This document shows, piece by piece, positions 9,471 to 42,420 of a stretch of 64,000 nucleotides of DNA; the stretch's first letter is position 1; the number at the start of each line of letters is the position of its first letter. The stretch is from NCBI GenBank assembly GCA_001560915.1, contig CP014214.1, forward strand, positions 1,302,001-1,366,000, in the 5' to 3' direction. Made by a program: the position numbers and the translations under genes. The notes beneath the pieces are model-generated. The model did not search any database, was not told the origin of the DNA, and was given only the letters and a program-made list of their open reading frames with translations. This stretch comes from a methanogenic archaeon ISO4-H5. Its GTDB lineage: Archaea > Thermoplasmatota > Thermoplasmata > Methanomassiliicoccales > Methanomethylophilaceae.

Positions 9471-9494
9471 GGGCCGGACCGCTTGGTCCGGCCC
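9471..9494. terminator. Perfect 10-bp hairpin between convergent genes
   Basis: The two arms GGGCCGGACC and GGTCCGGCCC are perfectly complementary around a GCTT loop. It lies 13 nt after the stop of the second Hsp70 and 57 nt beyond the 3' end of the opposing pseudouridine synthase gene, so it could end transcription from both sides. A short T-run follows on the plus strand (TTATCTTT). Confidence 0.7.
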
Positions 9495-9551
9495 CGTTAT
9501 CTTTAATCTCGGAAAACGGCAGCCTGACGGCATGACCCAGACATCATAAAA

Positions 9552-22471: not shown

Positions 22472-22618
22472 TCACCTCGCGATGTGCTCCCTGAGGTTCT
22501 GCAGGTCCTCCTCGGTGTAATGACCTACACTTGGTATCACTGGCCTCTTCCCATAATTCCTGGGAACACAATAGGCCGCGAATTCAATAGGAACTCCCGG
22601 AGGAAACGACTGTCTCAC
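22472..22618 (-). CDS. 48-residue ORF between the radical SAM and MATE genes
   Basis: A GTG-initiated frame of 48 residues starts inside the last codons of the radical SAM gene (35-nt overlap) and ends with TGA five bases before the MATE ATG, overlapping its ribosome site. The product has a YCVPRNYG segment and a helical end (YTEEDLQNLREHIAR) that looks like real protein, unlike the same DNA in the MATE frame. It has no recognisable domain. The tight overlap on both sides suggests coupled translation, but no strong ribosome site precedes the GTG. Confidence 0.45.
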   Translation of the reverse strand: MRQSFPPGVPIEFAAYCVPRNYGKRPVIPSVGHYTEEDLQNLREHIAR

Positions 22619-24946: not shown

Positions 24947-25966
24947 TCAGTGACCTCCCTGTGTCCTCATTTCCTGATGATGCTTGTTCTGGAGACGGTC
25001 CGGGTTCTCCCAGAGGGTCTTCCTTGCTGTTAGTTTGATTCCGTAGACCTCCTCCAGGTCTCTTTCGAGCGGGGAGATGTCCTTCTCGCAGGCCTTTCCC
25101 TCATAACCTTGGAAATGGTACACGAACTTACCGTCAAGATCGATGCGGAACTCCGCCACCTGCCCAGCGGGTTTCCTTGCGGTTATCTTCACGGTATCTC
25201 CTTCTTCATTCTTCAAATGGCGTATGTCCGACCTCTCCACGATGAAGCCCCTGGCGGTGATGCTCTTGACGATGGCCTGTACGGCGGATCTCCTCAGTCT
25301 CTCGTCGAGAATCTCCGAGGTAGCACGGTCCTTCAGCTCCAGGGGACTTACGGCCTTGCCGTCGCCCATCGCATCGCGGATGACCTCGGGAGAGATTTTC
25401 TCCGATTTCATCTCGGATTCGATGGATGAGACCGTATCTTTGATGAGTTTGCGCCTGACCTTCTTGGAGGGGTCGATAATGGACTCGGCCAGCTCTTTCA
25501 GCTCTTCGTTGGACAGAGCGTCGTGCGCCTTGTTCCTCGATATTAGCTCCACCACACTGCGCAGCTGGGGGTCCCCAATGCTGGAGAGATATTCTTCGAA
25601 CCCTTCGCGGAGACCGCGTTCCGACATCTTTGCATCGAATGCGGCTCTGACTGCCGAGTTAAGGGCTTCGGATTGCAGGACGACCCTGTTGACCTGCGTG
25701 AGGAACTGGCGTGTCCTGTCAATCTCCTCCCGGTAGGCGGTTGTTCCGATGCTGCCGCGACGTTCCGCAATGGATGCGGATGTGGAGGCACAGCTTTTCA
25801 TGAGGTCGGATATCCTCTCGCGAAGAGCTGCATCGAGGATGCGGGAGGAGTTCCTCTGGACTGCCTCGGTGTCAGCGATGATGTCCGCCAGACGCCTGTC
25901 GGCCTCGTCAAGCATCTGGTTGCACGCCTGGGCATACTCCAGCGTGGCCTGTTCCATATGGCTCAT
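24947..25966 (-). CDS. Coiled-coil protein of unknown function in the helicase/AAA+ operon
   Basis: The 339-residue protein is mostly helical with heptad-like charged stretches (about 1-230). A small alpha/beta C-terminal region (about 235-330; ITARGFIVERSDIRH, FRIDLDGKFVYHFQGYEG) follows. No known motif or membrane segment is visible. The ATG overlaps the stop of the HEPN gene (ATGA) and has GGAGG seven bases upstream. It lies between the HEPN protein and the AAA+ ATPase, so it may connect the two; this is inference. Confidence 0.75.
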   Translation of the reverse strand: MSHMEQATLEYAQACNQMLDEADRRLADIIADTEAVQRNSSRILDAALRERISDLMKSCASTSASIAERRGSIGTTAYREEIDRTRQFLTQVNRVVLQSEALNSAVRAAFDAKMSERGLREGFEEYLSSIGDPQLRSVVELISRNKAHDALSNEELKELAESIIDPSKKVRRKLIKDTVSSIESEMKSEKISPEVIRDAMGDGKAVSPLELKDRATSEILDERLRRSAVQAIVKSITARGFIVERSDIRHLKNEEGDTVKITARKPAGQVAEFRIDLDGKFVYHFQGYEGKACEKDISPLERDLEEVYGIKLTARKTLWENPDRLQNKHHQEMRTQGGH

Positions 25967-28044
25967 CTGGAGCCCTCCTTGGAAGGTGCGGGCTTTAGAT
26001 TATCCACGGTAGCCATCCACATCTTGCGGGTCTTTCTGTTCACCGAGGGGATTACTGGGTCATGTGCGCATTTGTTCCTGAAGTGTCTTATCTCCTCCAG
26101 CGTCTTGTAATCCTGGTCGGAAATCAGGCCACGCTCGTGGCTATTGGTGATCATATCCACCAGGTCCTGCGCCTCCACCAGGGTCTTGAGAGCCTCTTCG
26201 AGGGTTATGCCGAGGGTTATGCCGAATATCCTGTCGGGGGCGTTCTCTTGAACCTTGACCTGGACCATACTCTTCAGAACGGAAGCAATATCGGCGGAGA
26301 TATCAACGTAGAACTCCACTTCGCGGAACCTGTCTGCACCACGGATGAATGGTGCCGCAGCCTCCAGATCCCTGCGCATTGCCGGCCCGCGGCTCATGAC
26401 AATCTCCCTGTCCTCTTCGGATATTCCGTCGATATCCATCTCCATCGAGGAGGGGGATTTGATTCTCAGAATAGCCTTCATCGTCTGGATGTTCTGCGAG
26501 AGGTTGGACGCTGCCGCGAAGGGTTTGGATACAAAACTTCCGCAGGTGCCATCGAGGATGTCGTTCGTGAGCTGATCCTTGATATCAAGTGCCTTCACCA
26601 TCGGAGCAGGGTTCCTCACGTTGGGGTACAGTGCCTCGGCCACCAGGAGGTTACTGCGGGCATCCCCGGTCTTCATGCTCTCCGTCAGGATGTTTCCTGT
26701 TACGACGGTCTTGGTCTCGGCAAGGATGGATGCAGCCTCCTTAGGCCCCAGTCTTCTGCCTGCGATGACCTCCTCGATGACGTCCGGTAGCTCCGCGTAC
26801 CATCTCATCTTGCGGTATTCCTGAAGTGCCAGTATGTCAGCGCGTATGTCGGAGGAAGCGGTCAGATACCTCTTCACCAATTCGAGAATGTCTTCGGAAT
26901 CGTCCGTTATAGACATGATTCCCAGAGCCTTCTTGAATCCCGAATAAGTCGTGATGTCCACCTCTCCCACTGCCTGTTTGACGATCTCCTTTATACGGCC
27001 CTCATCGATGCTTCTGCGTACCATCAGGTTGCAGTTGCCCGTACCCTCGAACCCGCTGACCGGCACATCTCTGTTGACCAGACAGTACTCATACCCGAGT
27101 TTTGAGGTCTCTATTGCCAGGATATCGCATCCCTGGTCCCCTCTGAGAGTGTCGTACTTCTGGGAGGTGATGAATTCTCCCCCGACCATGACCAGCCTGG
27201 ACTTCTGGACATTCACCTCCGATGGGAGATGGGCTGAATAGCGGTCCCATTCCGGCATATCCGCGCGGACGTCTTGGAAGGTTAGCCCGGAGTCGGCCGA
27301 TCTGTATGCTCCACCATCTATGAGGTCCACGAGGTCCTCGGATGTGAACCTGCCCTTGAGGAAACTCTCGTCGAGGTCGCCGGGATTCAGAGAGAACGTT
27401 CCTGTCACCTGGTCGAAGTTGAGGGATATGTCCTTCGAATAGCAGCTCATCTGCATGTCCGCATCGATGTTGACGTCGAAGATGTCGGCATCCTTAGGTA
27501 CAGCGAAGTCACCCTTGTCCATGATTAGTGCATTCTCTATCCTCTGATCATCGGGTTGGATGTCCCTGAAAAGGTCTGCATGGAATCCATCGGGACTGCA
27601 GCGAGTTATCCTCTCATCTTTTAGATATTTCTTATTCGCCTGTGCTGGCACATATGCCATGATGCCGCGGATCTCCTCGATTTTGTCCGCGATTACACCC
27701 TTATCGAATGCCTGTCTGCCTGCAGTGGTGAACTCAGCATCCGAAACAGGATTATCGATATCGGGATCCTGGCGGAGCGTTATCATCTGGGAATCCGCGC
27801 CGCCTGGGCCCCAGCACATATTCTCGAGGGCGGGCCGATATACCTGGTTGAAGACTATCTCCGGGATTCCGTAGATGTCCATCACCTCCCTCCAGGTCTT
27901 GTCCCTGAGCGATTTCATGCCGATGGTGGTGAGGAGCATGTACTCGACACCGGTAGGCTTCCTTACCACGCTGTACTTTGCGCTGAACCCTTTCGAAACT
28001 ACGGGCAATTTGAGTTTGATTGTCAGTCTGGCCGTTTCACTCAC
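25963..28044 (-). CDS. Large protein with C-terminal HEPN-like domain
   Basis: The 693-residue protein has an N-terminal part of unknown fold (about 1-350), a helical middle and a C-terminal helical domain with RNKCAH (about 656-661), the Rx4H motif of HEPN ribonucleases in its usual IRHFRNKCAHD setting. A 12-bp tandem duplication (GAGGGTTATGCC twice, 26198-26221) gives GITLGITL in this domain. The start is a GTG overlapping the helicase stop by 8 nt. HEPN domains often cut RNA in defence and stress systems; cleavage by this protein is inferred from one motif. Confidence 0.75.
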   Translation of the reverse strand: MSETARLTIKLKLPVVSKGFSAKYSVVRKPTGVEYMLLTTIGMKSLRDKTWREVMDIYGIPEIVFNQVYRPALENMCWGPGGADSQMITLRQDPDIDNPVSDAEFTTAGRQAFDKGVIADKIEEIRGIMAYVPAQANKKYLKDERITRCSPDGFHADLFRDIQPDDQRIENALIMDKGDFAVPKDADIFDVNIDADMQMSCYSKDISLNFDQVTGTFSLNPGDLDESFLKGRFTSEDLVDLIDGGAYRSADSGLTFQDVRADMPEWDRYSAHLPSEVNVQKSRLVMVGGEFITSQKYDTLRGDQGCDILAIETSKLGYEYCLVNRDVPVSGFEGTGNCNLMVRRSIDEGRIKEIVKQAVGEVDITTYSGFKKALGIMSITDDSEDILELVKRYLTASSDIRADILALQEYRKMRWYAELPDVIEEVIAGRRLGPKEAASILAETKTVVTGNILTESMKTGDARSNLLVAEALYPNVRNPAPMVKALDIKDQLTNDILDGTCGSFVSKPFAAASNLSQNIQTMKAILRIKSPSSMEMDIDGISEEDREIVMSRGPAMRRDLEAAAPFIRGADRFREVEFYVDISADIASVLKSMVQVKVQENAPDRIFGITLGITLEEALKTLVEAQDLVDMITNSHERGLISDQDYKTLEEIRHFRNKCAHDPVIPSVNRKTRKMWMATVDNLKPAPSKEGSR

Positions 28045-31000
28045 CTCCTGTGATTGTGTCCTCGGTCAGGATTCCGTTCTTCCGCTCTATGGTGCTTATC
28101 ATGTTCCTGTAGATTGGTAGCTTCCTGCCAGCTCCCTTCTCTGCACCTATATCGTCATCCATAGGCACCAGCATTGGCTCTAGGGCACTCCTGTTACCGA
28201 CGATGATCAGAAGACGCCTGGCCCTGCTGATGGCCACATTGATACGGTGGTAGTTCATGAGGAACCGGGCCTTGGAAGTCGTCCTCACCATCGACAGGAT
28301 GATGATGTCACGCTCGTCCCCCTGGAAATCATCCACCGTCTTGACCATGAACTTCTCATCGCCGCTGTCGTTGAAGGAACGATACTTCTGGACCTTCTTG
28401 CCGCGGATGCGCTTCGCCTGATCTGCGTAGGGGCAGATGACTCCCACGCTGAGCCTCGTATCGTGGCGCCTGTCTACATCCCCGGTCAGGGGTTTTCCGT
28501 TGCGGTCGCATCTGCACCCCCTGTTGATCAGTTCGAGGAGTTTCCTGACCACTTCTATCTCGTTCTCATTGTAGAACGAGGTACTACCGGACTCCTGCAC
28601 CTCTTTGCCTTTGCAGTCCACGAATACGACGTGGGTGTCTTCGCCGATTATCTTCCTGCCGTAAGCACCCGTTATGTTGAGATAGTGCTCGCGGGCCTTG
28701 GCATTGATTCCTGCCTTCAGTTGATTGTCATAGAATACGTTGTCCACGTCCATGATGTCCGGATGCATGCGGTATTGCACATCTAGCATGATCTTGTTGC
28801 GGGGTGAGGTCTCATGGAACAGCTTGGCGAAGAAGCTGGTCTCATACTCCTTCTTATAGCGCTTCTCATCCCCAGGATTGATCCATTGGGGATCGTATTT
28901 GCCCTTCTCCATCTCATCCTCGGATATCCTCTCGGTGAACATGGGCGGGAGCTGCTTATGGTCCCCCACTAGGATTACGGTCTTACCGTAGAGGATGGGG
29001 TGGAGCAACTCCACGAACGGGATCTTGCTCACCTCATCAATGATGACCACATCGATGTTGAGTTCGTTCAGACGAATCTTCTCCTCATCGCTTTCGAAAC
29101 GGTCATTCGTAGTGCAGGTCATGCCGAATACGTTCACCGTCCGCAGGAGTTCGCTCTTATATTGGTCGCGGTCGTTGTCGATGACCTGCTCGTCCCGCAG
29201 ATACTTAATGATCCTCTTGTAGGCATCCACCCTGTCGTCCAATCCTTCGCGGTTGTTCCTGTACTCCCTCTCCAGGTTGTCGCGGACATTCATGAGCTTG
29301 TCGATGACCTCCGCGGGACTGCTATAGGTTATGGTGAGGTTCAGCCTGGCCAGGACATCCTTCACCAGGGTCTCGAATTCCGACTGGGCTTTCTCCAGGG
29401 AACGGTAGGCTCCGTCTGTGCGCGCGTCCTCGATTTCGTTCTTGATCCTTGTGATCTGCGACTGTATAATTTCCAGTTTGGTGGGATCGATTTTGCGTTC
29501 CAGATCGTCCACGAATTTCCTGTAGCGCCTCTCCTCCTCGTCGAGTATCGAATCGATGAGTCCTTTGGCCTCCAGGACCTTGTCCTGCGGAGGGACAGGG
29601 TTCAACTTCCTGAGGATGCGGAACGTCTCCTCCTCATCCAGGTCGTTATAGGAGAGGTACTTCTCGATTTCGGAGTTGATGCTTGCAATCTCCGATGCAG
29701 ATGCAATCTCCTTCCTGGCCCGGAGATCGAACAGTTTCTGATGGAACTCCATCTCGATGAACTCGTTCTCCAGTTCCGCCGAATCGGTCGAGCGGAGGAG
29801 CCTTATCATCTTGATTGGCTCCATTCCGTATGATGAGGCATCGAAACCTATACCTTGGAGCTCATCGAGTATCCTTCCGATGATCTTTTCATCGTCGATG
29901 TCGAGTATCCTCGACAATTCCTCCTCCTTCTCCATTATCTTATTGCGGTAGGTGTCGTTGTTGGTCTCCAGCTTATCCTTCTTGTTATATTCAGAATCCA
30001 GATTGCGCTGAAGATCCAGGATTCTCTCCTTCACGGCCTCGGTCTCCACTGAATACCTGTCGATTCTATGTGCCAGATCCTCGAGCTTCTCTATGCTCTC
30101 CGAGAGGTCGGACATATACTGCTGATGGTCCGTGTACTTACGAAGCTCCTTCTCTAGACTCATGGTGATGTTGTTGTAGAAGTTATCGAGCAGCCTTGCC
30201 ATGGAGTAGGGATTCTCCTTAGCTCTCGAGTCCTCGGTAAGGATGCGCATAGGGCGTATGGTAGGCATCTTGGGCAATCTGCTGAATGCGTTGTCGACAG
30301 CCTTGTGATTCTCGCTGGCGATCAGGACCTTCCTCCCAGATACTGCTAGCTGGGCGGTGATTTCCGCGATAACCTGCGTCTTCCCGGTACCTGGCGGCCC
30401 CTGGAGGAGGAACACACCATTGGCGGACAGCGCCTTTACAACCGCTTCTTTCTGTTTGTTGTTCAGGTTTTCGGTGAAGTACTTCATCGAATCGATGTCT
30501 AAGGCTGTGTCCTTCACTTTCCCGTCCGGGCTGAGCAGTGCTGTGGCCAGGAAGGGATTCATGACATATCCTTCCAACAGGGAATTCAGTGCCCTGCTCT
30601 GTCTGTCGATGAGCACCCAATCCCCGGTGAAATCCTTGCGGAGCAGCAATTCGGGTTTCATCCGGGGTGCAAGCCGCTTTATGATTTGCTCTGGGCTGTC
30701 TGTGTCTGGAATATCGAGTTCATAGTACACATGGAGCCTCAGCTCTGTATGATCTCTCCTTGCCGTTTCCACGCGTGCATCGAAGTCCCGGTCGATTTCG
30801 TTGATAGCGTTTACCCTCTTCTCGGCGTAAGGCCCTCCCAGTTCCGATTCAATATCCTCGCGCTTTGATAACGTCATGCGGGATATGAACTCCTCTCTGA
30901 TCCTACCCAGTTCTCTCTCGATATCTTTGCCGGGATCGAATCTTGCCTCGGCCGACTGATACTCCGTGCGGAGTTTATCGATGGTCTCGGAACGATTCTC

Positions 31001-32500
31001 AGAGTCGGCGACCAGTTTGGAGAGCCTGCTCTTCAGATCATTCTCCTTTTCGCGACAGGAACGCAACTTAGCCTGTGCCGCAGATATGTCCTTCTTCGGT
31101 ACCTCCCCCTCAGAATCTTTCAGTCTTTCGAGCACGGCCTCCGCTTGAGAACTCTCTTTTGCTGCGAGGTCCGATTCGTTCCTGCGTGCGGCTATCAGCC
31201 CCTCGGCAGACTTGATCTCCTCTTCGAGAGCTTTTATCGCATTCGATATCCTGGCCCGCTCTTCTTCGATTCTCTTCTTGGCCTGGAGCTCATTCCTCCT
31301 GGTAACAGGGCTCCTCTGTGCCTCTACTTCCGCCTCGGCGAGCCCGGGGAGCTCTGTCGCGACGAAACTGTCGAGCCTGAGCTTTACTTCCTTACGCCTG
31401 GCCTCCTCGATATCCCTCTCGGCCTTCGCCTTGGTCCTGTTACGGGCATCCTCCAGCGCCCTGAGTTCCTCCTCGGGGGGAACGTCCTCTGCTTTGGATG
31501 GCGCGATGCGGCCGTCACGAATCTGCACGAGCTGATTCTTCCTCCGATCCTTATCGACGGGGATGGCAGGATCTACCAGAACATTGGGGGCCTTGGTGAA
31601 GGAGTCGAATTTCTTCTTGACATCGATCTTCGTAGACTCCTTGAGCTCTTCTGCCTCTTTCTTGTTGAATGAGATGTAGAGGTGCAGGAGGACGGATTCC
31701 CTCGCAGTAGGATATCTTGAAATGTCGGGTTTATCCATGACCCAGATAACCCCATTGCGACCGGTATCGAGATACTGTACCGGTTTCATTTCTTCCTGAT
31801 TGATTGTCCCCTCGACGCAGTATGCCCTGATGACATCGGGTACGCAATCTCTCAGGTCATAGCCCTTCGTCGACTCCGTATCGATGAGATACTTCCTCGA
31901 CTCCAGGTACTTCTCCCAGATTTCGAATGTCTTTTCCGCAGCCTCGGGATCCTTCACGACGTAGGATCCATTGAGATCGAGCATGAAGTCATCGGTCAGC
32001 GTGCTGTAGCGTTTCTGCTCGTCCGTGGGCCAGTCGGTGAACGACCCGTTGCATTGCCACCGGCCGCGGGGTTCGATCTGAAGGACGGGGGTGCAGTCGG
32101 TGACCTCAATCTCCACCGAATCGGGAATGGTTTTGGGATCCACGGTCAGGATTGCCTTGACCTTGAACTGCCGGTGGGAATCCCTGTCCCTCTCGAAGAT
32201 GTCCCCCATCAGGACTATGTCGGTCTTGCCGTACTTCTGAGGGAACCTTACTGCCACATTGCGGTAATACTGCCCCCTGGCCTTCTCCACCGTCTGTTTC
32301 TCTCTGACAAAATTCGGATAGGAGAAATACACGGTCTGCTCAGTTACCGCGAAATGGATGAGGAGGAAGTCCTCGAAAGACTGGTTCTTGAAATTCGCCG
32401 AGAGGATGGAGAACTGGTCCTCCAGACCTGTGGAGAAGACCGTGTTCCTCACCCCCTCGTACCGATTCGAGCCGAAATCCAGGCATAGATAGTTAGTCAT
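28037..32500 (-). CDS. Upf1-like superfamily 1 helicase with long coiled-coil insertions
   Basis: The 1487-residue protein has a novel N-terminal region (about 1-300), a coiled coil (about 310-560), then the SF1 core: GPPGTGKT near 700, a second long coiled coil inserted between motifs I and II (about 750-1090), DEVSK near 1155, GDHKQLPP, YRMHP, TVDDFQGDERDIIILS and INVAISRARR. This is the AAA_11/AAA_12 (Upf1/Dna2-type) set. Start at 32500 is chosen for a GGAG site nine bases upstream; upstream codons extend into the spacer after the MazF-like gene. It probably unwinds or translocates on RNA or DNA as the motor of this operon. Confidence 0.88.
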   Translation of the reverse strand: MTNYLCLDFGSNRYEGVRNTVFSTGLEDQFSILSANFKNQSFEDFLLIHFAVTEQTVYFSYPNFVREKQTVEKARGQYYRNVAVRFPQKYGKTDIVLMGDIFERDRDSHRQFKVKAILTVDPKTIPDSVEIEVTDCTPVLQIEPRGRWQCNGSFTDWPTDEQKRYSTLTDDFMLDLNGSYVVKDPEAAEKTFEIWEKYLESRKYLIDTESTKGYDLRDCVPDVIRAYCVEGTINQEEMKPVQYLDTGRNGVIWVMDKPDISRYPTARESVLLHLYISFNKKEAEELKESTKIDVKKKFDSFTKAPNVLVDPAIPVDKDRRKNQLVQIRDGRIAPSKAEDVPPEEELRALEDARNRTKAKAERDIEEARRKEVKLRLDSFVATELPGLAEAEVEAQRSPVTRRNELQAKKRIEEERARISNAIKALEEEIKSAEGLIAARRNESDLAAKESSQAEAVLERLKDSEGEVPKKDISAAQAKLRSCREKENDLKSRLSKLVADSENRSETIDKLRTEYQSAEARFDPGKDIERELGRIREEFISRMTLSKREDIESELGGPYAEKRVNAINEIDRDFDARVETARRDHTELRLHVYYELDIPDTDSPEQIIKRLAPRMKPELLLRKDFTGDWVLIDRQSRALNSLLEGYVMNPFLATALLSPDGKVKDTALDIDSMKYFTENLNNKQKEAVVKALSANGVFLLQGPPGTGKTQVIAEITAQLAVSGRKVLIASENHKAVDNAFSRLPKMPTIRPMRILTEDSRAKENPYSMARLLDNFYNNITMSLEKELRKYTDHQQYMSDLSESIEKLEDLAHRIDRYSVETEAVKERILDLQRNLDSEYNKKDKLETNNDTYRNKIMEKEEELSRILDIDDEKIIGRILDELQGIGFDASSYGMEPIKMIRLLRSTDSAELENEFIEMEFHQKLFDLRARKEIASASEIASINSEIEKYLSYNDLDEEETFRILRKLNPVPPQDKVLEAKGLIDSILDEEERRYRKFVDDLERKIDPTKLEIIQSQITRIKNEIEDARTDGAYRSLEKAQSEFETLVKDVLARLNLTITYSSPAEVIDKLMNVRDNLEREYRNNREGLDDRVDAYKRIIKYLRDEQVIDNDRDQYKSELLRTVNVFGMTCTTNDRFESDEEKIRLNELNIDVVIIDEVSKIPFVELLHPILYGKTVILVGDHKQLPPMFTERISEDEMEKGKYDPQWINPGDEKRYKKEYETSFFAKLFHETSPRNKIMLDVQYRMHPDIMDVDNVFYDNQLKAGINAKAREHYLNITGAYGRKIIGEDTHVVFVDCKGKEVQESGSTSFYNENEIEVVRKLLELINRGCRCDRNGKPLTGDVDRRHDTRLSVGVICPYADQAKRIRGKKVQKYRSFNDSGDEKFMVKTVDDFQGDERDIIILSMVRTTSKARFLMNYHRINVAISRARRLLIIVGNRSALEPMLVPMDDDIGAEKGAGRKLPIYRNMISTIERKNGILTEDTITGGE

Positions 32501-32540
32501 TGTAATTGCTCCGTTTGTTACTGTGAATTTTACGGCCTGT

Positions 32541-32876
32541 TCATGAGCAGACCCAGTCCTCATCCTCCGGGCTCAGATGGCCCAGGCACCTCTTGATCCG
32601 CCCGAGGGGAATCGTATGCTCCTCCATGTCCACGAAGGTCCTCTTCATGAGACCTGCTCCGAACGGGTCTGCAATCGCCCTCCTGTCCCGGACGGTCGAT
32701 TTCTGCGAGGTGCAGCTGCGGTATCTGACGAGTCCGTCTGAGTATCCCGTGACGACCACCGGCCTACTCTTGCAACCCGTGGCCCCGTCGAACGGGAGGT
32801 TCTCGGCCCAGCAGACATCGCCCCGCCTTACGGAAGAGACACGGCGATTGTACTTCCTCGTGTCCAGGTGGGTCAT
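32541..32876 (-). CDS. MazF/PemK-like (type II toxin fold) protein
   Basis: The 111-residue protein has the MazF/PemK core: RRGDVCWAENLPF, then GCKSRPVVVTGY, as in the RGD(I/V)W...RPV(L/V)V pattern of mRNA-interferase toxins. The C-terminal half (PFGAGLMKRTFVDM, IPLGRI) fits the remaining strands. Its ATG overlaps the TGA of a 71-residue gene upstream (ATGA), where an antitoxin would sit. The helicase gene follows after 40 nt. PemK-fold proteins also occur as nucleic-acid-binding parts of defence systems, so toxicity is not certain. Confidence 0.75.
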   Translation of the reverse strand: MTHLDTRKYNRRVSSVRRGDVCWAENLPFDGATGCKSRPVVVTGYSDGLVRYRSCTSQKSTVRDRRAIADPFGAGLMKRTFVDMEEHTIPLGRIKRCLGHLSPEDEDWVCS

Positions 32877-33088
32877 GAGACCACAATCCCGCTGACCGGG
32901 ATGAGAATCCCGTGATTTTCATGATGAACCGCTGTGTGACCCGTTGCGTAACGGTACTCCCGCCTGCCTTCGTGTCCGCCTTCGAATGTTCTACATCCGG
33001 GGATGAGTTCCACCGGATGTCCCGCCCCCGCCAAAACCGGGGACACAATCCTATGAGCCCTGCGGCCCATTACACAAATGTTCACCAT
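32873..33088 (-). CDS. 71-residue protein, first gene of the helicase operon (possible antitoxin position)
   Basis: The small protein is rich in His, Arg and Gly (GRRAHRIVSP, GHTAVHHENHG). I recognise no domain. It is supported by position: its stop overlaps the MazF-like start (ATGA), and its ATG lies about 48 nt downstream of the predicted transcription start. A longer frame to 33169 exists but begins upstream of that transcription start. It could be an antitoxin, but antitoxins usually have an acidic or DNA-binding N terminus, which is not seen. Confidence 0.55.
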   Translation of the reverse strand: MVNICVMGRRAHRIVSPVLAGAGHPVELIPGCRTFEGGHEGRREYRYATGHTAVHHENHGILIPVSGIVVS

Positions 33089-33333
33089 GTAATCACGTCC
33101 TGTTCCCCGCCCATCTGAGGCAGGGTGTCTTTCGACGGTTACATATCGTTTAACCTGATATATAAACATTCATTTGGTTGTAATTATTCACCATTTTCAT
33201 CACTTTTCTATTTTTTAACAAAAATAATTTTTTTATAATACAATATATTTTTTTGTAATTAAACAAAATACTTTTCAAATAAAATAATTTCTTTTAGAGT
33301 AAAAATAAATATTTAGAATTAAGATACTCACGC
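33089..33333. promoter_or_regulatory. Divergent AT-rich promoter region between helicase operon and CARF regulator
   Basis: On the minus strand TTTATATA (33159-33166) is the likely TATA box of the MazF-like/helicase operon. On the plus strand AATAAATATTTAGAATT near 33304-33320 fits the CARF gene, which would have a very short leader. Between them, 33180-33300 is almost pure A/T runs, far more AT-rich than other spacers in the window. The CARF-wHTH protein may bind here. Confidence 0.6.
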
Positions 33334-34014
33334 ATGGTACAGCATGTTCACATCTGCCCTGTCGGATTCTATCCTGAACCGATACTCGCAGCAGTCGGGG
33401 CCCTGCCCGCAGACAAATACTATTTCCTATACAATGAGCACGAGGAGAGCCTCAAATGCTTGGAAGCGGTGAAGACGGCCCTGGCGGCAATCGGGCAGAA
33501 CAACAACATGGAGATGGATATCGACCCGTTCGATTACAGCGCGGTCGTCGGAACCCTCATGAAGATTCACCATGAGGAGAGACATCAGGACCCCGATACC
33601 CATTTCTACATCAATTTCACCAACGGCACCAACATCGTCGCGGGAGCGTGCTGCAGCGTATCGTACTTCATCGGTGCCACGCTGTACTATGTGATGCGTG
33701 ACGAGCCTGGATCGAATCTTTCAAAGACAGAACGTGTGAGGATTATTAAGACGCCGCGCATCCCGGACATAGAGAAGATGAAACCATTCGCAAAGGACAT
33801 CCTATCCAAGATTTGCGAATCGAAACTGGGGATAGAGATGCAGGCGTTATCCCTGTACATGCAATCTTCGCCGCAAAAACTCAACCACCACATCAACTCA
33901 TTCATCAGCAGCGGGCTGGTGGAGAAAACCAAGGACGGACGCAAGGTCGTTCTCGTGGCCACGGAGCAGGGAAAACTCCTATACTCGTGGATTGCAGAGG
34001 ATGCGGGATTCTGA
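33334..34014 (+). CDS. CARF-domain winged-helix regulator (Csa3 / DUF6293-like), copy 1
   Basis: The 226-residue protein has a Rossmann-like N-terminal domain (HVHICPVGFYPEPIL start, and NFTNGTN near 93, the CARF ligand-loop signature) and a C-terminal winged helix (about 145-226). CARF domains bind cyclic oligonucleotides or related signals in type III CRISPR and other defence loci. No CRISPR array or Cas gene is in the window. It is divergent from the MazF-like/helicase operon and may control it. A paralogue lies at 39591-40292. Confidence 0.82.
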   Translation: MVQHVHICPVGFYPEPILAAVGALPADKYYFLYNEHEESLKCLEAVKTALAAIGQNNNMEMDIDPFDYSAVVGTLMKIHHEERHQDPDTHFYINFTNGTNIVAGACCSVSYFIGATLYYVMRDEPGSNLSKTERVRIIKTPRIPDIEKMKPFAKDILSKICESKLGIEMQALSLYMQSSPQKLNHHINSFISSGLVEKTKDGRKVVLVATEQGKLLYSWIAEDAGF

Positions 34015-34309: not shown

Positions 34310-35092
34310 GTGCAGACCGCTACGGCAGTGCCGTCGCAGGCACCTGTCCAGAGAGGCCCGCCCCAGATCAAGAGGACTGAGCCCGTTACCCAGAAGTTCG
34401 AGGTAGAGAGGACCGGTCCCGACACCATCCGCAGCCCCTCATTCACCGACAACCGCTACTTCGTCCACATCAGCCCCGGCTACAAACTGCTGGTGATCAG
34501 GCCTAACGAGGACGGCAAAGTGAAAATCTCCAACTCACTAGCGCCTATAAACGAATTCATGAAAACCGTTTTTCCAGAATACGATTTTTCTGAAGAAATA
34601 AAACCATATTCTTTCAAGAAACCATGTAATTTCGATGAAAACTACTACGTAATGTTAGTTGACCGCGATCAAAAGTCATTCGGAAAAAAGAATGTCGAAG
34701 AGGTCCGCTCGGATTGTTCCAAACTCGGATACAAACTCATCCTTACATCCCCCTATTTTGAACTCTGGCTCACACTTCACTTTGAAAAATATGAGAAGGA
34801 AAAACTGCTGGAGTTTGTAAAGGAAGAAGTCCAGTTGATATACGAACAAGGGATTCCGAGATCCAATATAGGGAGGTCCCTAGGACCAAAAAGATATATG
34901 GAGCTGCTCAAACCGGGATACACGAAGAACGGAACCTTCGAGTGGGTCAAGCGTTCCGACATAAATCGTGCACTCGCAAATTCCGAAGATCTTTGCACAA
35001 ACCTAGATATGCTTGTACAAGAACTCCATTCCAATGACCTGTCATCAGTCGGTACGAACATAAAGGAACTGTTCGACTTACTGAAGGAATAA
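34310..35092 (+). CDS. RloB-like domain fused to a duplicated accessory segment
   Basis: The 260-residue protein starts with a Pro-rich linker and a 58-residue segment (residues 14-71) nearly the same as residues in the protein at 35347-36333. From about residue 72 it is RloB-like, with VMLVDRDQKSFG and TSPYFELWLTLHF (RloB consensus SNPCFELWLLLHF). RloB occurs in restriction/abortive-infection loci and is probably a nuclease or nucleotide-acting enzyme. Base composition changes at about 34525, from GC-rich to AT-rich. The start is a GTG without a clear ribosome site, and a stop lies 13 codons upstream, so the coiled-coil part of the donor gene is missing. It may be a working fusion or a recombination product. 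Confidence 0.65.
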   Translation: MQTATAVPSQAPVQRGPPQIKRTEPVTQKFEVERTGPDTIRSPSFTDNRYFVHISPGYKLLVIRPNEDGKVKISNSLAPINEFMKTVFPEYDFSEEIKPYSFKKPCNFDENYYVMLVDRDQKSFGKKNVEEVRSDCSKLGYKLILTSPYFELWLTLHFEKYEKEKLLEFVKEEVQLIYEQGIPRSNIGRSLGPKRYMELLKPGYTKNGTFEWVKRSDINRALANSEDLCTNLDMLVQELHSNDLSSVGTNIKELFDLLKE

Positions 35093-35346: not shown

Positions 35347-36333
35347 TCATAACCTTACGAGCATTCCCTCATACAATTCGCTGTACTCCGCGACGAGGAA
35401 CTTGGGGGTGTTGGTGAATCCCGAAACCAGTCCGAGATCTTTCAGACGGATAATCTTGTTGATGCAGTACACATTGCCGTCCTCGTTGGGACGGATGACC
35501 AGCAGTTTGTAATCAGGACTGATGTGCACGAAATAGCGGTTATCCGTGAACGAGGGGCTGCGGAGGGAATCCTCTCCAATACGCTCCACCTCGAACTTCT
35601 GAGTAACCGGTTCTGCCCTCTTGATCTGAGGCGGTCCCCTCTGGGGATAGGGTGCGGGTTGGATTCCGGAGGAGATCTGAGGAGGCTGCATTTCAGTATC
35701 CGACGAGGAATGGGTTACGTATTCGTTCCCCGCAGGAGCTGCGACGGTCCCAGCGGGACTGTCGTCGGACCTCAGCGTTATGTAATCATCCGCGGCAACG
35801 GCCACCGGGTTGCGCTGGGTCTCCAGCTGAAACCTGGTCTGGCGGAGTTCGTTCTCCAGCTCATCCTTCTCCTTGTTTATGCGTTCCAGACTGTCCTGGT
35901 AATCCGCCTTGAGCTCCTCTGCGATCTTGTTCTGGAGTTCGGCCTTTATCCTGTTCTCGTAGTACGCCTTGATGTCGTTGCCGTGCTTCCTCCAGATGGT
36001 ACCCAGCACGTTCTCCCTAAGCTGTTCGTTGAAATTGAGTATGTCATTGAGGGTTATCTTGAAGAGGGGGGTGGCATAGGAGCAGTTGTAACCAGGGGCC
36101 AGCGTACAGATCCAGGTATCGCCGATAGCCACTTCGTATTGGAAGTCACGATCCACGAATACAATGCAGCCGTTGTTCGTCTGGGAGACAATGGTCGTCC
36201 CCTTGTTGTCGAGTCTGAACGTCAGGATGTGGAGTTTCTTCGAATATCCTTCCACCATATCTTCCGCCTCATCCTCTCCATCGAACCTCTGGCTGGCCTG
36301 CCAGTCGATGAGATCCATCTTCTGGTCACTCAT
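35347..36333 (-). CDS. Coiled-coil protein with shared C-terminal beta domain
   Basis: The 328-residue protein has a beta-rich N-terminal part (about 1-100), a coiled coil (about 105-175), a Pro/Ser-rich linker and a C-terminal domain of about 80 residues (FTDNRYFVHISP, YKLLVIRPNEDG). The C-terminal segment also forms the N terminus of the RloB fusion and is similar in pattern to the end of the protein at 36971-37936. No known family is recognised. The ATG lies within the stop region of the NYN RNase gene (8-nt overlap) with GGAGG 11 bases upstream. It is cotranscribed with that RNase. Confidence 0.7.
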   Translation of the reverse strand: MSDQKMDLIDWQASQRFDGEDEAEDMVEGYSKKLHILTFRLDNKGTTIVSQTNNGCIVFVDRDFQYEVAIGDTWICTLAPGYNCSYATPLFKITLNDILNFNEQLRENVLGTIWRKHGNDIKAYYENRIKAELQNKIAEELKADYQDSLERINKEKDELENELRQTRFQLETQRNPVAVAADDYITLRSDDSPAGTVAAPAGNEYVTHSSSDTEMQPPQISSGIQPAPYPQRGPPQIKRAEPVTQKFEVERIGEDSLRSPSFTDNRYFVHISPDYKLLVIRPNEDGNVYCINKIIRLKDLGLVSGFTNTPKFLVAEYSELYEGMLVRL

Positions 36334-36889
36334 GGTACGGCACACCTCCGTCGAGAGGGGGGCTGGACATCGCGATGAACGGGATCTCCTTGAGTTTGTG
36401 GTAGACGTCGGCGGTCATCGTGAGTTCCCTATCGTTGGATAAAAATTCCTCATAGGATGCAACTTCCACCCTCTTTCCTGCGGCCTGGACCTTCTGGATC
36501 ACAGGGATATAATCTCTGTCACCGCTGACCACAATCGCCACATCGTAATGGTTCATGAGAGCATGTTCCATCATCTCCACAGCCAGGGAGACGTCGACCT
36601 CCTTCTGCTCGTAATGGTCCTTTCTCCAAACCATGGCTTCCCGGGTGATCAGACGGAATCCGATGGAACGGAGCTTGTTGAGTGCGTTCTGCTCCTCTTG
36701 CTTCCTGTCCTCGCCGGCAATCTTACCATCGAAGATATACGCACCTACGAGATCCCTGTTCCCCACGAGTATCTGGGTCAGTCTGAAGATGTCGGCTACC
36801 ATCGCTCCGTCGTTGTATTTCGACATTAGGTTGCGATAATCGATGAAGACCATCACGCGACTGTAGCTGCGGTCTACGAACAGGGACAT
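36326..36889 (-). CDS. NYN-domain (LabA/DUF88-like) ribonuclease
   Basis: The 187-residue protein is a NYN domain, a PIN-like nuclease. Acidic site residues are visible: Asp17 in FIDYRN, Asp99 in KEVDVSLAVEMM, and Asp124/Asp126 in VVSGDRDYIPV. It should bind Mg and cut RNA. TATTATAC on the minus strand near 36910 gives a leaderless or nearly leaderless start. It is divergent from the coiled-coil gene at 36971 and overlaps the coiled-coil gene downstream. A HEPN, RloB and CARF-rich setting suggests RNA degradation in defence. Confidence 0.88.
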   Translation of the reverse strand: MSLFVDRSYSRVMVFIDYRNLMSKYNDGAMVADIFRLTQILVGNRDLVGAYIFDGKIAGEDRKQEEQNALNKLRSIGFRLITREAMVWRKDHYEQKEVDVSLAVEMMEHALMNHYDVAIVVSGDRDYIPVIQKVQAAGKRVEVASYEEFLSNDRELTMTADVYHKLKEIPFIAMSSPPLDGGVPYHE

Positions 36890-37936: not shown

Positions 37937-37958
37937 TATAGTCGGGAGTTTGGAGAGC

Positions 37959-39554
37959 ATGGTCATCGATCCCGAAGTCTACCGCTTGATCAACAAACGC
38001 AAGGATGACCCCATCTTCATGGATTTTCTCCTGAACCATTATTCTCAAATCGTAGATTCCAAAGAAGGTATGGATAAGATCTGCTATGCCCAGGAAATCG
38101 CACGTGTCCTAGCCAGATTTGCAATCCAAGAACGGGTCCTTGCAGAACATAGTGACCATCCCATAGACGAAGAAAAATACAATCGTTATTACAGGACAGC
38201 GTTATACATTATCAGAAAAGGCATTGATATCGGCATGAAGATGGATTACGAGGCTAACGTGATTGGGGGAAAACCACTGAATGTCTCATATAACTATCAT
38301 ATGGGCTGGGCCTATGTACAGTACTCTATGATTCTTGCCGAAAACTATCGTTATTTCGCTGCTATGGGTGCGATTGTAACTGCAGAGAACTATCTAGTCA
38401 ACGATATATATAAAATAAAAGCTGGAAACCGGTTGCAAGGGGCCATAGATCTAATAAAAAGTCTGCCGGATTACGATGCGAGCACTCACGGTCCGTTGAC
38501 AGACTTGACGCCTGAACAGGCTGATCGGAGGATACTTCATCTATTTGATAGCCTAGGTGAGGCGGTCAATGAAAAGAAACTTCGCATTTTGGATGAGGTC
38601 TACAAGAAAGTCCCCGATAAATACCGCTTCATGTATGCGGTTTGTATAGATGGCCTCTTGGATTATTTCAAAAAAAGAAACGAAAAAGATTTCTTGAAAA
38701 ATTATGGTAAAGTTGTTTTAGATATTCAGGAGGAATTCCCAGAAATACCAAAGAAATTCCTCGATCTGCCTGATCTTTCTCAAAAGAATCTCGCACACGA
38801 TGAAACCCAAGAAGAAAAAAATTATGCCCTGTGGATTGATGGTTGCCACCTATTCTTAAGCTACCTGGATTTCGTTCCTGACATAGAAAAACGTCTCCGA
38901 TATGAGTGTGATGACCTGGTATTCGATTTCCAAATTCCGGATCTCAACAACATAATGGAGGATGTGGTAGAAACCTACTCCCATTGCAGGTTCCAGTTTT
39001 ACATGGCAACGCAATTCAATAGTCCGATTGAAAAACTGGCATACAGCTTCAGTCCATTTAACAAACGCATTTACAATCAAGAATTGCTTCTGGACACCTA
39101 TCCCCGCCTGTACTCGATTTTGGATAAAATATCCCATATAGTGATGAAAATCTGTGACATTACGATAATGCCCAACGACGACGGATATACTCCTCAACCC
39201 TCGTATAATCTAATTGTGCAGGAAATTCGTAAAAATTCAAACGGAAACCCATATCTCCTTACTCTCTGTGAGATATTCGACGAGATCAATCCTCGCTACA
39301 TTTACAGGACACAGAAGGACGTGCCATTCTATACGATGCTCCCTGGAGCTGAGCATATGGATAGGATTAGACATCATATAATCCACTCGGGGATCATGCT
39401 TGACGCTGATAGAAAGGTCAAAAAATCAAACAAGATTGTCTGCCATATCTCCGGAACAGATTTCGCAATGAGATGCTTAAATCTCATCACCCTTGTCAAG
39501 GAAGCTATCATGAACACCTGCATGGCAATAGAATACAGAAATCGCCAGGAATGA
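37959..39554 (+). CDS. HEPN protein of the LA2681 type
   Basis: The 531-residue protein is largely helical and AT-rich in coding, unlike the housekeeping genes. Near residues 471-476 it has RHHIIH, an Rx4H motif in a DRIRHHIIHSGIM setting typical of HEPN domains of the LA2681 class. The N-terminal two-thirds may form helical repeats. HEPN domains usually cleave RNA. I prefer the ATG at 37959 over TTG at 37950 because GGGAG lies ten bases upstream of the ATG. It likely shares a transcript with the coiled-coil gene before it. Confidence 0.68.
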   Translation: MVIDPEVYRLINKRKDDPIFMDFLLNHYSQIVDSKEGMDKICYAQEIARVLARFAIQERVLAEHSDHPIDEEKYNRYYRTALYIIRKGIDIGMKMDYEANVIGGKPLNVSYNYHMGWAYVQYSMILAENYRYFAAMGAIVTAENYLVNDIYKIKAGNRLQGAIDLIKSLPDYDASTHGPLTDLTPEQADRRILHLFDSLGEAVNEKKLRILDEVYKKVPDKYRFMYAVCIDGLLDYFKKRNEKDFLKNYGKVVLDIQEEFPEIPKKFLDLPDLSQKNLAHDETQEEKNYALWIDGCHLFLSYLDFVPDIEKRLRYECDDLVFDFQIPDLNNIMEDVVETYSHCRFQFYMATQFNSPIEKLAYSFSPFNKRIYNQELLLDTYPRLYSILDKISHIVMKICDITIMPNDDGYTPQPSYNLIVQEIRKNSNGNPYLLTLCEIFDEINPRYIYRTQKDVPFYTMLPGAEHMDRIRHHIIHSGIMLDADRKVKKSNKIVCHISGTDFAMRCLNLITLVKEAIMNTCMAIEYRNRQE

Positions 39555-39590
39555 AAACACATTTGTTATATCATAAAGTGATTCTGTTTT

Positions 39591-40292
39591 ATGATGCATG
39601 TCCATATCGCCTACGCGGGAAAAGTTCCGGACCCCACTCTGAATACAATCAAAGCAGTACCGGATGCCATCGACAGGGTAGTTCTGCTTTACAGCGTAAC
39701 GGACGATGGTGTTTTCGAACGTACCGCAGAGGAACTATCGGGCAAATTGGGAAATATGGGATACCTCTGTGAATCCAGAATCATCAACTCCTTCGATTTC
39801 CTGAATATCGTGGACACGATCTATGATGTTTTCGAGGAATACAAGAAACAGGATCGTAATGTAAAATTTTCCGTGGACATAACCAACGGAACTAATCTCA
39901 CTGCAGCGGCTGCATGTAATACGGCATTCTTCATGAATTCCGACGTTTATTACATGGGAGATAAACGCAGATTCCCCGAGAAATCATTAAGTGAACTCCT
40001 GATCGCCATCCCCTCTCCGAAAATCCCGGATGTGAAACGTCTGGGCGATTTATCTCTAGATATGCTGAGGTTCATCGCCGAGGAACAGGATCTCGGTCAC
40101 GAGGTATGCAACGTGGATGTCGCCAGGAAATTCGATATGTCCCCTCAGGCGATTATGTATCACATAAACAGACTCAGGGACGCAGGGGTCATCGATTTGG
40201 AAGATGCCTATACTCCCAAAGGAAAGATCGATAAACGCAGGAAAGCGATAAAGATCAGGCGTGAGGGAAGATTCGTCCTCAGATGGACTTGA
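39591..40292 (+). CDS. CARF-domain winged-helix regulator (Csa3 / DUF6293-like), copy 2
   Basis: The 233-residue protein matches copy 1 (33334-34014) in layout: N-terminal Rossmann-like CARF domain (MHVHIAYAG start, DITNGTN near 98) and C-terminal wHTH with SPQAIMYHINRLRDAG, ending in a basic segment. GTTATATCAT about 25 nt upstream gives a nearly leaderless start. It precedes the kinase and viperin genes and may regulate them. Two such sensors in 7 kb without CRISPR suggest a nucleotide signal from another source; this is inference. Confidence 0.82.
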   Translation: MMHVHIAYAGKVPDPTLNTIKAVPDAIDRVVLLYSVTDDGVFERTAEELSGKLGNMGYLCESRIINSFDFLNIVDTIYDVFEEYKKQDRNVKFSVDITNGTNLTAAAACNTAFFMNSDVYYMGDKRRFPEKSLSELLIAIPSPKIPDVKRLGDLSLDMLRFIAEEQDLGHEVCNVDVARKFDMSPQAIMYHINRLRDAGVIDLEDAYTPKGKIDKRRKAIKIRREGRFVLRWT

Positions 40293-40383
40293 TTTAATTT
40301 CCGTAATTATCAACTTCATCCATACTACTGTGCCAGATGACTGTTATCGTGTTTATTGTGAAACACAAATACTAAAAGTTATA

Positions 40384-40479
40384 TTTTTATTATAAATGAT
40401 TTTTACTTTATAATTCCAAAACGAACTTACCCTCATGAACACAGAAACCGCCCTGGTCAAAAAGTGCAGGTCTGCTAAC
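40384..40479 (+). repeat. Promoter plus 15-codon leader shared with the viperin gene (copy A)
   Basis: This 96-bp block (51 nt of promoter and the first 15 codons of the kinase gene) aligns without gaps to 42325-42420. I count about 71 of 96 positions equal. Both copies have a TTTATAAT box 28 nt before the ATG (40407-40414 here) and both proteins start MNTET..V.K.RSAN. The shared block suggests the two genes are turned on together. Confidence 0.8.
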
Positions 40480-41133
40480 AGGAAATACACCATCGGCGTA
40501 TTCGGAATCTCAAGGAGCGGAAAGGATTCGGCCATTGACGTCTTCGTCGACATAGCCCGGGAGAACGGTTACGAATTCACCCATATGTCCCCCATTGGGA
40601 TGATCCGTGAGAGACTGACGGGCAGAAGACTCAAGACGATGCCGGAATCGGAGAAGAGGCAACTGGTGGAAGAGGTGCGGGCTGAGATCAGAAAGGTCTC
40701 GGAGACCAATAACATCATCGTTGACGAACACTACTGCTTCCCCCACGATTTCGGAGGAGTTGTGTTGGAGGACGGATATTATGATGAGAAACTGCCCTAT
40801 GACATCATGAGCATTCCTAACTCTCCCACGAACTACGAAGTCGTGCTCCCTAGATTCGGCACGCAGTTCTATGATCTCGTGGCTGTGATGAAGATAGACC
40901 CAGACGCCATAATCGAACGTATGAGGAGATCTGAAGGATGCAAGAGGAACACAGTCGCAACCAGAGAGGATATCATACATTGGCAGCGGGCAGAGATGAT
41001 AGGGGTATACCATGATGCCCTGGGTCGCGGCATATTCCAATCTGAGGACTATATGAAAAATGCCGAGGCCATTTGGGGAGCTTTCGAGGAACTTGTCAAC
41101 GAAGACCGTTCACCCCAGCCCAATCACTTGTAA
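40435..41133 (+). CDS. P-loop nucleotide kinase-like protein
   Basis: The 232-residue protein has a 15-residue leader, then GVFGISRSGKDS (P-loop, about 21-32) and a DEHYCF segment near 104 that fits a Walker B/acceptor region. It resembles adenylate/cytidylate kinase-type folds but no exact family is recognised. It is a paralogue of the amber-interrupted kinase at 43532-44176. Nucleotide kinases are often found beside prokaryotic viperins, where they may phosphorylate the product or precursor. Its 3' end overlaps the ApeA-like gene's end by 10 nt (convergent). Confidence 0.75.
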   Translation: MNTETALVKKCRSANRKYTIGVFGISRSGKDSAIDVFVDIARENGYEFTHMSPIGMIRERLTGRRLKTMPESEKRQLVEEVRAEIRKVSETNNIIVDEHYCFPHDFGGVVLEDGYYDEKLPYDIMSIPNSPTNYEVVLPRFGTQFYDLVAVMKIDPDAIIERMRRSEGCKRNTVATREDIIHWQRAEMIGVYHDALGRGIFQSEDYMKNAEAIWGAFEELVNEDRSPQPNHL

Positions 41134-42269
41134 ACATAGGGCTTGTCTGCCTGGAAGTTATGTGGTCTGAAAATTCTCTCCATCAAACCATCACTCACAG
41201 GATTCCATCTGACGGTGTCAACCTTGTATGCGGCCTTATCCTCATCGCAGTATTCCAGTTTGTTGACGATATCCTCTATTTCCCTGTCCTTCACATAGAA
41301 CAGCTTCAGAATCAGGCATCTAGTAAGGTCGAATGCCATCGGTATGCATTCCTTGTCAAATACTTCATCCTTGCTTTTGTGGACGAGTAAACTGCGCTGG
41401 TAGTAAAGATATCCCACTTTCTTGTAGAGATTGGCCTGCTTTTTCCCTTTTACTACTCCGCCGTTACGTATCATACGAGAAACACTCTGCTTAATCCTCT
41501 CAGTTACACGGTTCCTGTTCTTTGACCATATCTCCGGGAATTGCTGAGCGAACAATTCCCATATCCCCGATATTGCTATGAATGCGGTTTCCACATCGTT
41601 GCATCTGTACGCATTCCTGTATAGATCGAGCATCCTTTTCGTTAGCATATCCTTGCTGCTCGGTTCCGGCCCGTAATTCAGCGGATAGAACTGGGTGTAC
41701 CACTCACGGAACTCCGAATAGAACTTTTGAAAATCCTTCTTCTCGGATTCACTCAGCGTGAACACGGGCAGAAATCTCCATAACGCATAGTTCGTCTCGC
41801 ATTGGTACATATCGTTTACGGCCACACCTCCTTCCGGAAGTACTCCGATTCCGAATCCTGCCCGGTTCGTTTTGAAGAGTCTGATGGCATCGATGAGACA
41901 CCTCTCCTCGTCCTCCCAGCTTTTATCGGTGTCCATTCTGAAGTATCTGAACTGCTGATACTCCGAACAGCATGTCCCATCGTCCTTCTTCTTCACGACG
42001 AATTCGCAGTAGATCGTACGGGCCATGGAGAGTGGAGCGAAAAGATGGTGGAAGAAATCATAGAGCGTGTCCACCAAAATCTCATCCCTGCGTTCGTTGA
42101 CTATCTTACCGTCAGGACCGCTGGCTCTGTTGTAGATGTAGGACATTCCGGTTTCCATGATCGGCTTCATGTCATACGGCGAAACGGTACCGTATTCGAA
42201 CGGCGGCAGATCCACGTCTAGAAGAGAATCGTCCATTCCGCTGCACAGTACGATGGCCGTGGTCTGCAT
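41124..42269 (-). CDS. ApeA-like HEPN protein
   Basis: The 381-residue protein has an N-terminal part of unknown fold and a C-terminal HEPN domain with RSLLVH (about 292-297), in the YYQRSLLVHKS setting typical of ApeA-type HEPN proteins (Rx4H). Such proteins act in anti-phage defence by degrading tRNA or other RNA. GTGATATAACC on the minus strand about 25 nt upstream fits a leaderless start at 42269. It lies between the kinase and viperin genes in the opposite direction, with the viperin promoter on its 5' side. Confidence 0.75.
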   Translation of the reverse strand: MQTTAIVLCSGMDDSLLDVDLPPFEYGTVSPYDMKPIMETGMSYIYNRASGPDGKIVNERRDEILVDTLYDFFHHLFAPLSMARTIYCEFVVKKKDDGTCCSEYQQFRYFRMDTDKSWEDEERCLIDAIRLFKTNRAGFGIGVLPEGGVAVNDMYQCETNYALWRFLPVFTLSESEKKDFQKFYSEFREWYTQFYPLNYGPEPSSKDMLTKRMLDLYRNAYRCNDVETAFIAISGIWELFAQQFPEIWSKNRNRVTERIKQSVSRMIRNGGVVKGKKQANLYKKVGYLYYQRSLLVHKSKDEVFDKECIPMAFDLTRCLILKLFYVKDREIEDIVNKLEYCDEDKAAYKVDTVRWNPVSDGLMERIFRPHNFQADKPYVYK

Positions 42270-42324
42270 AGGGGCAGTATGGCGTTATGGTTATATCACG
42301 GTTGGTAAAATAGCCAAAATTATC

Positions 42325-42420
42325 TTTTTATTATCAAAGAATTTTGCTTTATAATCTGAACACCAAATACCTATCATGAACACAGAAACTACCTCAGTCA
42401 GGAAATTCAGGTCCGCAAAC
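42325..42420 (+). repeat. Promoter plus 15-codon leader shared with the kinase gene (copy B)
   Basis: Second copy of the block at 40384-40479, ending in codon 15 of the viperin gene. TTTATAAT at 42348-42355 is the TATA box, 28 nt before the ATG, as in copy A. Confidence 0.8.

Follow-up and report, generated by a model that had tools for sequence, protein, structure and literature searches.

CARF domains have mostly been studied as receptors of the cyclic oligoadenylates of type III CRISPR systems. The regulator Csa3 requires Arg98 for cA4 binding (PMC8844856), and the palindrome of Csa3a, CAPPa, lies 12 bp upstream of the BRE/TATA element (PMC8699464). MM_0565 of Methanosarcina mazei, a dimeric protein joining a CARF domain to a winged helix-turn-helix (wHTH), recognises the promoter of its own gene, with a preference for AT-rich DNA (PMC7465815). 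The CARF domain of RtcR binds tRNA halves ending in a 2',3'-cyclic phosphate (PMC7790460), and a signal consisting of RNA-fragment ends has been proposed for the CARFs found beside UPF1-like helicases in CoCoNuTs (PMC11090510). Here we analysed a 64,000-bp stretch (the window; bases 1302001-1366000) from the single-contig, 1,937,883-bp genome of the rumen methanogen ISO4-H5 (PMC5011839), in which a CARF-wHTH gene, CARF1, faces a densely packed minus-strand operon (32876 to 22584) whose genes overlap or nearly touch at their ends. The locus comprises the following features:

33334-34014, plus strand: CARF1, CARF-wHTH regulator of 226 aa (CARF at residues ~1-141, wHTH at ~148-222)
33170-33333, no strand: AT-rich divergent intergenic region, 16.5% GC, holding most of the window's lowest-GC stretch
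33213-33304, no strand: imperfect tandem array of ~20-bp period, 4.7 copies, with A-tract/T-tract units (TRF score 63)
32873-33169, minus strand: ORF of 98 aa with a 4-nt overlap at the PemK start; GC at successive codon positions 0.62/0.47/0.52
32541-32876, minus strand: PemK/MazF-like protein of 111 aa (through a homologue at locus L033), first clear operon gene
28037-32563, minus strand: UPF1/IGHMBP2-like SF1 helicase of 1508 aa (AAA_12 7e-45, AAA_11 9e-33, TIGR00376 1e-59)
25963-28044, minus strand: 693-aa protein with a weak HEPN/DUF4145-like C-terminus (Pfam, alignment with relatives)
24947-25966, minus strand: 339-aa protein, no fold assigned
23128-24945, minus strand: ClpB/ClpA-like AAA+ ATPase of 605 aa (AAA_2 7e-49)
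22584-23141, minus strand: NrdG-like radical SAM activase of 185 aa (profile matches)

A preliminary description of this DNA had placed a CARF-wHTH regulator at 33089-34014, and the gene at 33334-34014 (+) bears this out, with Pfam, PADLOC and AF2/Foldseek in agreement. The N-terminal CARF domain exceeds the curated cut-off of the Pfam family HFX_2341_N (PF19810; 2e-13, 51.2 bits, cut-off 30), and the protein matches the PADLOC model CARF3 PDLC01866 at 1e-39. For the AF2 model (mean pLDDT 92.9; 22-sequence alignment), the top full-length PDB match was Csa3 (Foldseek E 2.9e-8), whose fold extends over the whole length of CARF1 by both Foldseek and VIA-align (Z 15.9 over 204 residues in the latter); the CARF part also resembles Can2 and Csm6 (VIA-align Z 17.2 for Can2). 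Residues ~145-226 are MarR-like (Z ~13-13.5, rmsd 1.2-1.8), the C-terminal winged helix being present in the AF2 model, where sequence matches alone fall below cut-off. The recognition helix is atypical in reading NHH where the family usually has SYH, and the curated Csa3 model TIGR01884 gave no match in CARF1. Taken together, the Pfam and PADLOC matches, the predicted fold and the structural matches to Csa3 and MarR proteins establish the CARF-wHTH label as correct.

Among described regulators, Csa3a of Saccharolobus is thereby a full-length fold match that likewise combines a CARF domain with a MarR-like wHTH, and its CAPPa element lies just upstream of BRE/TATA, as does the palindrome of CARF1 relatives (below). 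The two differ in that CARF1 stands among other defence operons, with no cas genes near it, in that the CARF1 family palindrome is a distinct one of 21 bp, and in that Asn replaces Arg98 in CARF1. MM_0565 differs in being CRISPR-linked, and no distinct binding motif was found there (PMC7465815). RtcR is a CARF-gated transcription activator (PMC7790460), as is proposed here for CARF1, but it is a bacterial sigma54/AAA+ enhancer protein, whereas the 226-aa CARF1 contains no AAA+ sigma54 domain between CARF and HTH and its operon contains no rtcBA.

The preliminary description had also presented CARF1 as divergent from a helicase/HEPN operon across a shared AT-rich region. That region is indeed present (33170-33333, GC 16.5%), no 164-bp segment of the 64 kb being poorer in GC than the one that starts at 33159 (13.4%, against a window mean of 54.8%), and both the divergence and the helicase were recovered. 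The HEPN component is less secure: the 693-aa protein matches DUF4145 (E 8.5e-4) and HepT-like (0.017) profiles below cut-off in both cases, and its RNKCAH motif is replaced by GNTSAH in the nearest relative and missing from the rest. Given these sub-threshold matches and a catalytic Arg that is not conserved, the HEPN assignment, weak as judged from sequence, is treated as unproven. The immediate neighbour of CARF1 also requires correction, since it is the PemK-like gene, preceded by a possible ORF of 98 aa (32873-33169) whose coding status appears doubtful. The 111-aa protein (32541-32876) itself has no Pfam match and is called PemK-like because it is 50% identical to a protein at L033 10435-10836 (Pfam PemK_toxin 1.4e-7).

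In its composition this operon recalls CoCoNuTs, where an RtcR-like CARF gene accompanies a UPF1-like helicase whose partner is a HEPN-type or PLD protein (PMC11090510). The UPF1-like helicase of that pair is present, and the nuclease candidate is the weak HEPN protein with its unconserved Arg. Unlike CoCoNuTs, the operon has no McrB/McrC-type genes (no McrB-type NxD GTPase or McrC homologue was assigned among its proteins, the AAA+ member being ClpB-like), and its CARF-wHTH has no AAA+ domain of the RtcR kind. The best defence match of the 1508-aa helicase is MkoA of Mokosh (MkoA/B; PADLOC 2e-95); no PLD match was found among the operon proteins scanned. Only three AAA_12 helicases occur in the genome.

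We then considered what CARF1 might sense. Its best full-length structural match is the cA4-binding Csa3, and its Gly-Phe (G11-F12) resembles Csa3 motif 1, as would suit a conventional sensor of Cas10-made cyclic oligoadenylate that links type III CRISPR to the operon in the manner of Csa3. Against this reading, which we regard as very unlikely, neither a Cas10 palm nor mCpol was detected in the genome, and its CRISPR-Cas locus is of type I-E. Furthermore, the equivalent of Csa3 Arg98 (G96-x-R98), located by sequence register and not by residue-level superposition, is Asn100, leaving CARF1 without the cA4-binding Arg/Lys of motif 2; the position is Lys in L101 and Arg in L032. Asn100 recurs in 11 of 12 closer members of set A1, which used no search pattern, the exception being L032 with Arg. 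Its apparent invariance in set A3 was discounted, and only A1 is counted, because the A3 search pattern itself required Asn. The cyclic-oligonucleotide signal previously assumed for CARF1 is therefore less likely, with Asn100 at the Arg/Lys position needed for cA4. The accompanying statement that no CRISPR-Cas genes lie in the window holds; the genome, however, is not CRISPR-free, as it carries a type I-E locus about 146 kb away (L153 6504-15900; G000:C1 ~1146503-1155900). That locus has a 61-bp repeat period and a split cas3 frame, and the 165-aa product of its last gene ends as Cas2e but has an apparently Cas1-like N-terminus, with an internal deletion. Searches of the genome found neither Cas1 nor Csx1_HEPN, the Cas1 miss being due to this truncated Cas1-Cas2 remnant.

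With no detectable Cas10 or mCpol in the genome, a signal from another source is likely, and from its sequence the CARF1 ligand is probably not Cas10-made cA4. By analogy with RtcR, we favour an RNA end carrying a 2',3'-cyclic phosphate as the putative ligand, since RNase partners produce such ends.

The association between CARF gene and operon was examined with the 693-aa protein in 121 relatives and subsequently in 400 genomes of the class Thermoplasmata; relatives identified by name include Methanomassiliicoccales MAGs. In the 121 relatives there was, besides weak matches, a single fragment of 98% identity, located on a short contig; a near-identical operon copy, interrupted by a contig end, occurs in G004. 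The class-wide search identified L101 (G348:C21) as the nearest full-length operon relative, in which a CARF gene (4677-5375, minus strand) diverges from the helicase gene (5517-9839, plus strand) across a gap of 141 bp. The L101 helicase is 34% identical over residues 28-1506, its 693-aa homologue is 26% identical, and PemK is absent. The expectation that a CARF gene would accompany copies of the operon is thus borne out at L101 and fails at L050, L052, L053, L054, L102 and L103, where distant helicase/693-aa pairs (about 20-23% identity in the 693-aa homologue) have no CARF, so that the association belongs to the close lineage only. These CARF-less pairs, like the missing canonical operator at the CARF1 promoter (below), are what would be expected if CARF1 were a mere resident of a defence island and not a regulator of the operon it faces. 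We find this rather improbable, as the divergent pairing recurs in the nearest operon relative and neighbours are consistent across the CARF family. One of the CARF-less pairs, L050 8472-14917 (G000:C1 ~849-856 kb), is a second helicase/693-aa pair in the ISO4-H5 genome itself, situated beside leucine-rich-repeat genes. The 693-aa protein was not found in viral contigs or plasmids, and no CARF family member was confirmed in viral contigs.

The ISO4-H5 genome contains a second CARF-wHTH protein of the same family, CARF2, 27% identical to CARF1, which scores 17.5 bits against TIGR01884, below the cut-off of 60.2. The library entries PDLC01866 and HFX_2341_N cover this same family and give neither partner genes nor an operator. 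The CARF2 part of the island includes:

37950-39554, plus strand: HEPN_LA2681 RNase with RHHIIH motif (Pfam 2.7e-44), directly upstream of CARF2
39591-40292, plus strand: CARF2, CARF-wHTH regulator (PDLC01866 1e-84)
40371-40391, plus strand: candidate CARF2 operator, ACTAAAAGTTATATTTTTATT, 44 bp before the ATG at 40435
40435-41133, plus strand: kinase-like protein (weak AAA_17), behind the operator at 40371
41124-42269, minus strand: 381-aa protein with a conserved RSxxxH motif, possibly HEPN-like, 70-72% identical in L037 and L039
42312-42332, no strand: candidate CARF2 operator, AGCCAAAATTATCTTTTTATT, in the gap separating two divergent genes, whose start codons are 44 and 43 bp away
42376-43206, plus strand: radical SAM protein, on the other side of the operator from the divergent gene 41124-42269

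HEPN_LA2681 followed by CARF2 (37950-40292) forms a conserved two-gene module in Methanomethylophilaceae, of which we found no description in the literature searched. Elsewhere in the island, an RloB-like gene (34310-35092) and an opposite-strand coiled-coil gene (35347-36345) share an 81%-identical segment, suggesting recombination, and a gene for an NYN-domain RNase-like protein lies at 36326-36889.

Across the 400 Thermoplasmata-class genomes, we defined the close CARF family by E < 1e-50 with profile A3, omitting as separate subfamilies the tandem CARFs of other Thermoplasmata (E~1e-20) and distant relatives such as L040-L045. All 13 close-family loci, which represent about five locus types and are not all independent, lie beside a UPF1-like helicase or HEPN_LA2681 (or its fragment). 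The helicase is the neighbour in six (CARF1, G348:C21, G016, G018, G030 and G215); those of G016, G018 and G030 carry an N-terminal Swt1-like HEPN domain (by Pfam in G016 and G018, by homology in G030), and G215 has a Mokosh-like triad downstream of a radical SAM gene. HEPN_LA2681 is the neighbour in the other seven (CARF2, G012, G048, G070, G319 and G398, with a gene fragment at G348:C84), the arrangement at G070 being divergent and accompanied by PemK. In the reverse direction, only 4 of 121 relatives have HEPN_LA2681, and every copy lies next to a family CARF. PemK was rejected as a conserved or core partner because only 2 of 20 PemK-like matches adjoin a CARF within flanks of ~1.5 kb.

Resemblance to Mokosh extends beyond the CARF1 operon helicase, as outside the class, in L071 and L072, the CARF gene precedes genes for an MkoA-like helicase and a PLD protein. 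Mokosh-like trios joined to a CARF-wHTH gene, comprising an MkoA-like helicase, a 372-417-aa protein and a PLD/DrmC-like protein, were observed at L071 4101-9336, L072 8679-13718 and L145 3377-8675. Also outside the class, haloarchaeal CARF genes end operons headed by an HsdR_N-methylase protein; L063 5078-8582 and similar haloarchaeal loci consist of the HsdR_N-methylase fusion, an uncharacterised protein of ~280 aa and the CARF-wHTH protein. Together with the palindrome described next, these neighbourhoods of RNA-cutting, helicase or restriction genes suggest a stand-alone family of local "infection switches", which may work without a CRISPR signal-making enzyme.

Relatives of CARF1 also carry a 21-bp inverted repeat, AGTMAAA-N7-TTTKACT. 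Its half-site, AGTA(A/C)AA, was first spotted by eye upstream of four CARF genes, and the formal pattern was fixed from L145 and L067, both of which have the 7-nt gap. With a variable gap, the operator outscored control promoters as a whole but not AT-rich ones (P 0.12), the signal emerging only with the gap fixed at 7. In a fixed-gap scan of 23 CARF loci (431 kb), all eight sites scoring at least 13/14 (L071, L145, L067, L059, L036, L073, L065 and L068) fell in promoters of CARF genes or operons, against 0.20 sites expected from dinucleotide shuffles (maximum 1 in 40); other loci totalling 337 kb, some of them with more distant CARFs, gave no site of at least 12. Six of the eight played no part in defining the pattern, although only sites outside both the by-eye regions and the training pair count as independent, given how the half-site was first noticed, and loci of the L065/L068 type and of the CARF2 type show partial homology among each other.

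The proximal edge of the operator lies 43-46 bp from the regulated start codon in L065, L068, L073, L145 and L067, and the weaker best sites of L061, L066 and L069 stand at the same 44 bp. Between operator and ATG, about 26 bp before the latter, is a TATA-like box; from sequence, the predicted arrangement is a leaderless promoter with the operator in an activator-like position. Towards the CARF gene, the repeat ends 2-6 bp from the start codon in L059, L071 and L145, which suggests autoregulation. Such a repressor-like position, seen in several loci, would also fit CARF1 as a toxin-antitoxin-like repressor that silences the PemK/RNase operon until a ligand releases it, a reading to which the PemK-like gene, which is nearest on the opposite side at this locus as in L033 and lacks an evident antitoxin, and the likely toxic HEPN_LA2681 RNases lend weight. 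We consider it unlikely, however, in view of effector-operon operators placed upstream of the TATA box and of L101, which has no PemK.

Both candidate operators at the CARF2 locus score 12/14. That at 42312-42332, which lies 44 bp before 42376 and 43 bp before the divergent start at 42269, is kept in L037 and L039, with comparable sites in L143 and L144. These sites constitute weaker evidence because duplication or orthology links part of the promoters, and conservation of promoters in general may play a role. The kinase-like (40435) and radical SAM (42376) genes have matching promoters and first ~15 codons (MNTETxxVxKxRSAN), a likeness indicating duplication of promoter and leader.

At the CARF1 promoter, in contrast to the family, the best match to the canonical operator in 33170-33333 is 11/14, within chance, and matches across the whole window are at or below chance. 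Matches to sigma-70-like promoters within this AT-rich DNA were disregarded as unsuitable for an archaeon. The region shows instead a significant ~20-bp periodicity (z 4.1 for the autocorrelation at lag 20; P 0.008 when all lags are considered), and the near edge of the array at 33213-33304 lies 44 bp from the ATG at 33169. This array may be a candidate CARF1 binding array, and the CARF1 lineage may have changed the operator at its own promoter; phased A-tracts that bend DNA are an alternative reading of the same units. The earlier proposal that CARF1 controls the operon thus gains from the L101 pairing and from the fixed spacing of the family operator, but finds no canonical operator in 33170-33333, where control of the facing operon is still inferred.

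The divergent CARF gene at L101, the recurrent family neighbours and the family operator together support regulation of the operon by CARF1. Such regulation is likely, although the evidence has an important gap at the promoter of CARF1 itself, and we judge it reasonably probable that CARF1 serves the facing defence operon as a dedicated transcription factor, Csa3-like and gated by a ligand. A CARF1 dimer would bind the AT-rich region 33170-33333, perhaps at the array of 20-bp period, and repress its own gene; once a nucleotide infection signal fills the CARF pocket, transcription of the PemK-helicase-693-339-Clp-radical SAM operon would rise. Binding to this region, activation as its effect and a nucleotide other than cA4 as the ligand are each proposed on this basis.

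More speculatively, and with appreciably less confidence, CARF-wHTH proteins of this kind may be widespread archaeal switches, largely independent of Cas10, that respond to a signal other than cyclic oligoadenylate, such as RNA-cleavage ends, and control exchangeable cassettes (HEPN_LA2681, PemK, UPF1-like helicases, Mokosh-like and methylase-led operons) through one 21-bp operator at fixed spacing, with the ~20-bp array serving CARF1. The family operator and the recurrent pairing of the CARF family with RNA-targeting cassettes are the most novel part of this analysis; we found no description of either in the open literature, the main CARF classification lying outside that coverage. A CARF-wHTH design placed beside non-CRISPR RNA-defence cassettes with a common operator opens three questions to direct test: which signal CARF domains read in the absence of Cas10, how defence operons of archaea are turned on, and whether many cassettes are linked by a single regulator family. 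With the predicted operator, binding and reporter assays in haloarchaea amenable to genetics can start from exact sequences.
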